Positions 43,386-48,486 of a stretch of 64,000 nt of DNA are shown one piece after another. Under the pieces are notes generated by a model. That model was not told the DNA's origin and made no database searches. It was given only the letters and a program-made list of their open reading frames with translations. The stretch comes from Bradyrhizobium arachidis. GTDB taxonomy: Bacteria > Pseudomonadota > Alphaproteobacteria > Rhizobiales > Xanthobacteraceae. The position numbers and the translations under genes were made by a program. Within the stretch, counting starts at the first letter, position 1. Each line of letters starts with the position of its first letter. Location: positions 4,650,001-4,714,000 of the forward strand of contig NZ_CP077970.1 in assembly GCF_024758505.1 (NCBI RefSeq), in the 5' to 3' direction.

Positions 43386-46364
<2,979 letters not shown>

Positions 46365-46462
46365 CCCGGTGGTCCCCAAGGAAAAACCCAAAGACGCCGA
46401 ACGCGCCGATGGTCAGGCGCGCCTCGCCCGGAACCGGGGATGGACGCCATTGGGTGTGCTGC

Positions 46463-46477: not shown

Positions 46478-46654
46478 GACGGCGGATTTCCAGTGCGAGT
46501 TGCGAATCGTCAACGGATTGTTGGGCGCGTGGCGGGACGTGGCAGGAGCGGCCGAGACGGTGAGGTGTGAGATTAACCACAGACCGCAATCTCAGATTGT
46601 GCTATAGTGCATTCAATAGTTTTACTGACGTCTATTTCATTTCCGGGAGGGCAC

Positions 46655-48400
46655 ATGGAAGTCCTCACCAAATTCGCGATCTATTTCACGGGTGGCCTGG
46701 CGCTTCTGGCCTGCAATGTCTGGTTCTTCAGCGCGGTCTACCAGAGCGTAACGGGCGGAAATCTCGTCGTCGCGCCGGTCAAGGTCGTGGGCGGAACCGG
46801 CGATCCGAACCTTGCCGGCGAGGCGTTGGCGCGGCTGATCATTGCGCGCCTCCAGGCGCTGCAATGGGACCTGAAGGAGTCGCAGTCGTCCCTGACGTCG
46901 GAAAATCAGCGGCAAATTCAAGCGCAGCAGCAGGCCAGGCCGGCCGCCTCCGAGATCGCGCTGCCCCGCGGGGTAGCCGCTGGCATGCTCGGAATCCCCC
47001 AAACCGCGGCCTTGAATGCGCAATTGTTCGAACCGACGACGATCGACGTCAAGGTGGCGGGCGTCGACGTCGGCGGGCTGCTGCCCGGCATCCAGCGCTG
47101 GTTCGTCCACGACAAGACGCTAACCTTCGCCGTCTCCATGGATGGGACGTCCGCCATCGTCGCGGGAAACATCGATCCGCTCGCACCGGGCAAGGCCAAG
47201 CCAATATGGATGTCGGTCAAGAACGCCAATCCGAATGCCATCGCGGACGCCATTGCGTTGGCCCTCATTCACCGGCGCTGGGCCACCGACAGTCCCCAAT
47301 ACCGAGAGCTCAGCGATGACGAGTTCAGTCAGCTCGTCGAGTCCATCAACGGGACGGCGAAGGCCAATCGCCGCTTCACGATCTACGGTGACGAGGCCAA
47401 GCCCGATTTCGTGAAGATTTCGGATGCGCTCCATCCACTCGCAGATCGCATGGTGAGCTGGAACGAGCTGACGTCCTTTGCCGCCTCGATTGCGGAGAGC
47501 GCCGAGAACTACGAGCGCGCGCTGAGCTATTATCGCCGGCTCGCGGCCTCGCCCAAGCCTGGACTGGACCCGCAAACCCTGCAGGCAAAGATATCGGCGA
47601 TCGAAGCGCTCGCGGCCAAGCTCGGCCCGGCGGCTGCCAAGCTCGCCCCGGCGGCGACGGAAGACGTCGCGCTGAAGAAGATGCGCGGGCACGTCGCCGA
47701 CGCCACCCGCATCCTGAACGGCCTCTTCAACGCGAGTTTGCCTGAACCCGAGCTTAAGCTCATTTCGGACGACCAGCGCAACGCATATTGGGATGGCACA
47801 GCGATCAACGTTCCCCCGAGCGTGCAGGACATCCCTGATGTGATCTATCACGAGGTCGCCTGGCCATTCGTTCAATCGCGCTGGCCCAAGTTCAAGTATG
47901 AGGGGCAGGAGGGAGCGCTGGTCCAATCCTACACGGACGTGCTCGCAACGCTGGTGAAGCAGAAGAAGCTGAACCAGACCGCGTCGACCGCCGATTGGGT
48001 CATTGCGCCTGGGGCGATGGCGTGGATCGAGGGCAAGCCCGATCGCACCGACACGCGACCGCTGCGCTCGATGAAAGCACCCGGGACGGCCTATGACCGG
48101 GATGCGCAGTCAAACCATTTCAGCAAGCTCTACAAGGCGCCCAACACCGCCGCCGGCGATTTCGGCGGCGTGCACATCAACTCCGGGATTCCGAACCGCG
48201 CATTCTACGAGACGGCGATGAAGATCGGCACCGACAGCGCAGGAAAGATCTGGATCGCGAGCCTTGACCAGTTCAAGTCACCGACGGACCTGCGCACGGC
48301 GGCCAAGGTCATCCTCGAGACCGCCACGAAGCTGAACGGCGCGGACAGCAAGGAGACGAACTCCGTCAAGGCAGCGCTTGATACGGTCGGACTGCTTTAG
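46655..48400 (+). CDS. membrane-anchored thermolysin-like (M4) protein with lost zinc site
   Basis: The 581-residue product has an N-terminal membrane segment (FAIYFTGGLALLACNVWFFSAVY), a long unassigned region and a C-terminal half that follows thermolysin in order. It has DVIYHEVAW (His399-Trp403) for the HExxH helix and YEGQEGALVQSYTD for the helix with the third ligand. GGVHINSGIPNRAFY (His507) covers the H231 region, and it ends SVKAALDTVGLL. Two of three zinc ligands differ (second His to Trp403, Glu166 to Gln424). It is probably not an active peptidase. ATG has GGGAGGG upstream. Confidence 0.78.
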   Translation: MEVLTKFAIYFTGGLALLACNVWFFSAVYQSVTGGNLVVAPVKVVGGTGDPNLAGEALARLIIARLQALQWDLKESQSSLTSENQRQIQAQQQARPAASEIALPRGVAAGMLGIPQTAALNAQLFEPTTIDVKVAGVDVGGLLPGIQRWFVHDKTLTFAVSMDGTSAIVAGNIDPLAPGKAKPIWMSVKNANPNAIADAIALALIHRRWATDSPQYRELSDDEFSQLVESINGTAKANRRFTIYGDEAKPDFVKISDALHPLADRMVSWNELTSFAASIAESAENYERALSYYRRLAASPKPGLDPQTLQAKISAIEALAAKLGPAAAKLAPAATEDVALKKMRGHVADATRILNGLFNASLPEPELKLISDDQRNAYWDGTAINVPPSVQDIPDVIYHEVAWPFVQSRWPKFKYEGQEGALVQSYTDVLATLVKQKKLNQTASTADWVIAPGAMAWIEGKPDRTDTRPLRSMKAPGTAYDRDAQSNHFSKLYKAPNTAAGDFGGVHINSGIPNRAFYETAMKIGTDSAGKIWIASLDQFKSPTDLRTAAKVILETATKLNGADSKETNSVKAALDTVGLL

Positions 48401-48434
48401 GACGACGTCGTCTCCCAGCCTCCTCGAAAAGCAA

Positions 48435-48459
48435 AAAGGCCGGCACAAGGCCGGCCTTT
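48435..48459. terminator. bidirectional terminator (copy 1 of three)
   Basis: AAAGGCCGGC / GCCGGCCTTT, 10-bp stem, loop ACAAG, with A and T runs on the two sides. It lies between two convergent genes. Near-identical copies are at 49358 and 50418. Confidence 0.85.
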
Positions 48460-48486
48460 CGCAAGTGAGATGATGTCGGGCGAAGA

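Follow-up and report, generated by a model that had tools for sequence, protein, structure and literature searches.

Background

According to the passages of the published accounts considered here, peptidase domains that have lost their catalytic residues are found in several known systems. Of the domains that take the effector position in the vWA-MoxR ternary conflict systems, ~70% of the caspase type and nearly all of the trypsin type are inactive; they may act as dominant negatives or bind peptides (PMC7159879). Among the accounts considered, this statement comes nearest to the present case. Among pseudometallopeptidases, loss of metal ligands has been described in the families M1, M12, M13, M14, M15, M16, M24, and M41 (PMC11266112). 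Furthermore, a 2021 paper places inactive zincin-like metalloprotease domains among the effectors of one system (PMC8195603), and in C. difficile the dead subtilisin-like proteins CspC and CspA act in the recognition of germinant signals (PMC12880746). Here we describe a gene in a stretch of 64,000 nucleotides of the Bradyrhizobium arachidis genome (assembly GCF_024758505.1, contig NZ_CP077970.1, positions 4,650,001 to 4,714,000; the whole stretch is called the window). Its product, P0001, is a protein of 581 amino acids (aa) that joins a membrane anchor and an N-terminal module (the N-module) to a domain with the fold of the M4 peptidases, in which the zinc site has been lost.

Residues 331-581 of P0001 share their fold, conserved segments, and C-terminal end with the M4 peptidases protealysin (2vqx) and thermolysin. 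Unlike these enzymes, P0001 lacks the second zinc histidine, the zinc glutamate, and the GDGD loop, and adds a membrane helix and the N-module. The likeness to the vWA-MoxR systems is that dead peptidase domains are kept as modules; there, trypsin and caspase domains occur on vWA proteins together with MoxR and third components, whereas here M4, subtilisin-like (S8), and papain-like (C1) domains occur on a membrane-anchored N-module (PMC7159879). No vWA-MoxR components were recognised among the neighbouring genes, judged by eye and, for eight genes at three loci, with Pfam. CspC and CspA differ in being soluble; they belong to a subtilisin-like family of clostridia and are encoded together with CspB, which is active (PMC12880746). 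The reviewed pseudometallopeptidases share the loss of metal ligands, and in some of them the pseudo-active site is reused for protein binding; one, Goe, is membrane-anchored; the review gives no thermolysin case as far as its main text goes, from which the word thermolysin is missing (PMC11266112). In the literature covered (titles, abstract starts, and passages, with few subscription papers or preprints), no description of a family of N-module proteins with dead peptidase domains was found.

An M4-fold domain without its zinc site

The coding sequence of P0001 lies on the + strand at 46655..48400, including the stop codon, and is supported by the open frame, the orthologues, and the ratio of nonsynonymous to synonymous divergence (dN/dS). 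The protein begins with a membrane segment (residues 7-25, 46673..46729), seen in the hydropathy and as a helix over residues 2-33 in the model, which is found in 46 of 49 members of the pseudo-M4 family (alignment A1). It continues with the N-module (residues 34-300, 46754..47554), which has an alpha/beta part followed by TPR-like helices, and ends with the M4-fold domain (residues 331-581, 47645..48397), identified from the predicted fold and sequence comparison, with all parts on the + strand. A TPR_7 match at 275-302 is weak, and by sequence the N-module has no convincing solved relative (best E 0.31); weak Foldseek rows for it (CadC periplasmic part, HPF; E ~0.8 and higher) were not used.

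A reading made from the sequence alone had likened the C-terminal half of the protein to thermolysin. The predicted structure bears this out and removes the objection that the fold might be unrelated: it has the M4 fold, the VIA-align superposition on thermolysin covers mainly residues 331-581, and the segments NAYWDG, DWxI, LRSM, APGTAY, and GGVHINSGI, as well as the C-terminal end, are conserved with M4 peptidases. The model pairs with thermolysin only from residue ~56-61 onward. None of the 49 family members matches the N-terminal M4 domain PF01447 at E 0.05; from the start of the alignment with thermolysin, the end of the PF01447 lobe is present.

Within this domain, HEVAW (residues 399-403, 47849..47863) stands at the place of HExxH, with Trp403 instead of the second zinc His. 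Gln424 (47924..47926) stands where M4 peptidases have their third zinc ligand, a Glu, and the substrate-side histidine is retained as His507 of GGVHINSG (48173..48175); all three were read on the + strand from the sequence and the alignment. The alignment compares 57 dead rows (P0001, P0002-P0055, P0122, and P0123) with 65 ordinary M4 proteins (P0056-P0120), and its rows come partly from a search that gave the best 120 of 126 matches, with the 7995 candidates sharing most words being scored. Site counterparts are given in thermolysin residue numbering.

The second zinc His is present in 0 of the 57 dead rows (Trp in 37, Phe in 8, others in 12), and the zinc Glu in a single one, P0050 (Gln in 33, one gap, others in 22, including His in P0049 and P0052). 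The substitutions at HEVAW and Gln424 that had been noticed in P0001 are genuine. An intact HExxH is seen in none of the 57 rows, so the objection of a sequence error fails. The first zinc His is kept in 51 and the catalytic Glu in 48 of the dead rows. The counterparts of Asn112 (55 rows), Asp170 (54), Arg203 (51), Asp226 (46, with 7 gaps), and His231 (48, with 4 gaps) are also kept, some of the gaps falling in truncated rows. All nine site residues are intact in each of the 65 ordinary M4 rows. In a tree built by maximum likelihood from 118 M4 domains, prepared without the truncated rows P0044, P0045, P0051, and P0052, one branch with support 100/100 separates 53 dead rows from the 65 intact ones. 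This split fits a single origin of the zinc-site loss, although the placement of some long branches among the dead rows is unsure.

The residues that persist raise the question of whether the domain is still an enzyme, with another metal site or another chemistry drawing on His399, Glu400, Asp428, and His507, which are kept in 51, 48, 54, and 48 of the 57 rows. This appears very improbable, since the second zinc His is lost throughout, 56 rows are without the zinc Glu (one of them a gap), and no aligned N-module protein has an intact catalytic set.

A shared N-module on dead peptidases of three families

One N-module is joined to dead peptidases of three unrelated families: M4, subtilisin S8, and papain C1. 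The sequence-only reading had rightly placed the membrane segment of P0001, and had missed that the module following it is shared with dead subtilisin-like and papain-like proteins. A profile of the module (A5) was built from pieces of 12 N-module proteins and run on 145 collected proteins, of which it matches 79, namely 55 dead M4 proteins, P0122, P0121, and 22 of the S8-like family. It matches none of the 65 intact M4 proteins, nor the TIR protein P0123 described below. Among the 145 proteins no active peptidase was seen on the module, in a collection seeded from P0001 and the S8-like P0124 that may miss other heads, dead or alive. A profile search with the A3 alignment gave P0124-family proteins only; it seems that the first row alone supplied its candidates, and the module may carry further heads.

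The S8-like form is exemplified by a 756-aa protein from another genome of the same genus (G437, L037 433-2703, - strand) that has four hydrophobic segments and, besides the N-module, a dead domain with a cryptic subtilisin fold; 21 proteins are related to the S8-like member, one of them from a Sphingomonadales metagenome-assembled genome (MAG). These relatives have a predicted subtilisin fold without the Asp/His/Ser triad; the loss was judged by aligning them to a single intact subtilase, and the position of the His is unsure. Pfam is nearly blind to this domain (weak matches in 2 of 20 members), which was recognised because of the shared N-module and the predicted fold. The family profile found nothing at E 0.5 among PDB sequences, and an MHETase match of P0124 alone (7e-5) was judged spurious against the subtilisin fold. 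There is no S8-like member in the genome of the window, where P0124 finds the pseudo-M4 gene through the module (E 1.1e-8) and two further marginal matches (E 0.035 and 0.042). The C1 form is P0121, encoded on a 190-kb contig, in which the N-module is followed by a papain-like domain with the catalytic Cys replaced by Val and with His and Asn retained.

The genome of the window also encodes two further M4 proteins, each of which has HELTH and the zinc Glu, and a match to the inhibitor emfourin lies beside each of their genes (8395452 and 9019415; the genes with their adjoining matches are at G000:C1 8394688-8395724 and 9019415-9020203). In protealysin, emfourin is reported to bind at the region of the active site (PMC9505478), and some pseudoenzymes regulate their active cousins (PMC11266112). 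These points favour a decoy or regulator, in which the dead domain would bind emfourin-type inhibitors or the propeptides of the two intact M4 peptidases, or would compete for substrate. We regard this as rather improbable, because neither of the 2 emfourin matches in the genome is near the dead M4 gene and a decoy role would leave unexplained why the N-module also carries dead heads of the S8 and C1 families.

Selection and occurrence

Full-length orthologues are found in Bradyrhizobium at L008 (95%), L009 (60%), and L010 (58%), and the frame of the pseudo-M4 gene is intact in four genomes of the genus. Over the six pairs of these four orthologues (window, L008, L009, and L010), dN/dS is 0.11-0.24 for the whole gene, with the M4 domain and the N-module taken separately giving 0.10-0.23 and 0.06-0.23, the values being rough for the four pairs in which dS is near or above 1. 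Taken at the level of these sequences, the gene is under purifying selection in four orthologues, and the M4 domain is about as constrained as the N-module. A sequencing error or a decaying gene was rejected, and is given practically no credence, on the basis of the intact frames in four genomes, the loss of the site in all 57 rows, and dN/dS well below 1. The earlier description of the protein as a pseudopeptidase is supported by the M4 fold, the ligand loss across relatives, and the purifying selection.

The comparable constraint on the N-module and the M4 domain would also suit a structural or inert head, whose cleft is idle and which serves only for shape, spacing, or oligomer contacts while the N-module does the work; the unmatched thermolysin residues, 1 to ~55-60, point the same way. 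This explanation is nevertheless unlikely, given that substrate-side residues are retained in most of the 57 rows and that the recruitment of three unrelated peptidase folds is hard to explain if the cleft is irrelevant.

Of 265 genomes in the genus, only 4 have the M4 form. The N-module was found in 1 of 397 sampled genomes of the order (profile A2) and in 1 of 385 of the class (profile A5), each time the genome of the window itself, in scans that may miss distant cases at first look. A scan of genome contigs gave 26 loci, made up of the 3 full orthologues, the locus of the TIR protein (L011), and 22 others (L012-L033) in which the M4 zinc motifs are intact, HELCH of L026 having been read by eye.

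A relative with a TIR domain

One dead M4 domain was found in a different arrangement. P0123 is a 673-aa open frame from a Chloroflexi MAG (L011 8738-10759, + strand) with a TIR domain (PF13676, 8e-26), a single hydrophobic segment at 162-180, and a dead M4 domain (PF02868, 4.4e-24) that has YQLSS at the place of HExxH; a further stretch is weakly trypsin-like (chymotrypsin, E 0.04; GDQGG by eye). In the tree P0123 groups with P0053, an N-module protein. If the TIR domain is cytoplasmic, the dead peptidase would lie outside, in an input-output arrangement. With PADLOC at E 0.1, TIR matches were obtained in P0123 and no match in P0001, P0121, P0122, P0124, P0050, or P0053. Elsewhere in the genome of P0123, the TIR part finds another 24 matches, and one M4 protein with HELTH is encoded.

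Gene neighbourhood

The pseudo-M4 gene is preceded by GGGAGG (46645..46650, + strand), a Shine-Dalgarno-like sequence read directly 4 bases 5' of the ATG. On one side lies uvrA (43386-46391, - strand) and on the other three consecutive Omp beta-barrel genes (PF13505; 48487-51350, - strand). Pfam, run on eight neighbour genes at three loci, identified these four in the window and ssb and gyrA at L009, the remaining neighbours being judged by eye; the placement beside uvrA and an Omp cluster given earlier was thus correct, and the association is positional only. In all four M4 carriers of the genus the gene is at the same place beside uvrA, and no trace of it is seen at 14 of 16 Bradyrhizobium uvrA loci (~1.5 kb per locus), which points to an optional gene with a fixed place. 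A functional tie to uvrA or the Omp genes was set aside for the same reason. Omp-like frames beside uvrA were also noticed by eye at several Bradyrhizobium loci without a dead peptidase gene.

The base composition of the pseudo-M4 gene (GC 63%; 82% at third codon positions, GC3) is near that of the nearest Omp gene (GC 64%, GC3 84%), with uvrA slightly higher (65%, 88%). Between the pseudo-M4 gene and the convergent Omp gene there is a hairpin of 11 pairs (48434..48460, found on the - strand), at which transcription of the - strand gene could end, and perhaps that of the pseudo-M4 gene too; 1 hairpin was found around the pseudo-M4 gene against 1.9 expected in shuffles, a count that is weak by itself. 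No Rfam family reaches its gathering score in the window.

Proposed function

For P0001 itself, the reading that we favour, at about an even chance of being right, is that of a membrane-tethered binder, receptor or scaffold, with an exchangeable dead-peptidase cleft for a peptide or protein. The dead M4 cleft would recognise a peptide, a protein, or a peptidase inhibitor without cutting it; most of its residues for holding a substrate chain are kept. The helical N-module may relay this recognition or hold a partner, in addition to anchoring, and the dead peptidase head would be the exchangeable part that chooses the ligand. Binding, scaffolding, and inhibition, the roles put forward in the earlier reading, remain the candidate roles. 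The strongest argument for a binder is that one module recruits unrelated dead peptidases, and the joining of the relatives' anchor to other dead peptidases suggests that disabled proteases are used as binding heads. More tentatively, and with somewhat less assurance, the N-module proteins may form a receptor or scaffold family with swappable dead M4, S8, and C1 recognition heads, in which the dead M4 domain has been wired to TIR in one lineage. In P0123, the dead head would then be the sensor and TIR the output.

Several observations weigh against the proposal of a binder. Structural constraint alone could account for the retention of the first zinc His and the catalytic Glu. The zinc Glu persists in P0050, and P0049 and P0052 have a His at that place. 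Thermolysin residues 1 to ~55-60 are without an aligned counterpart, so the cleft may be incomplete. In the 46 A1 members with a membrane segment, the flanking charges amount to 35 Lys/Arg and 39 Asp/Glu on its N-terminal side and to 74 and 39 over the 20 residues that follow, and do not clearly favour either side of the membrane. A single protein represents the C1 form, support for the trypsin-like stretch of P0123 is weak, and the unsure His of the S8 triad and the rough dN/dS values count here as well. Carriers are few: of 265 genomes in the genus, 5 have any N-module. The neighbours of the gene are housekeeping and Omp genes, among which no partner gene was recognised.

Dead peptidases have usually been met family by family, as odd cousins of active enzymes. 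In this respect, the pattern of three dead-peptidase families on one module is a more interesting result than a single pseudopeptidase. The shared module offers a route to dead peptidases that are missed by profile searches and, if the heads do bind peptides or proteins, they would form a natural series for what peptidase folds recognise after catalysis is lost.
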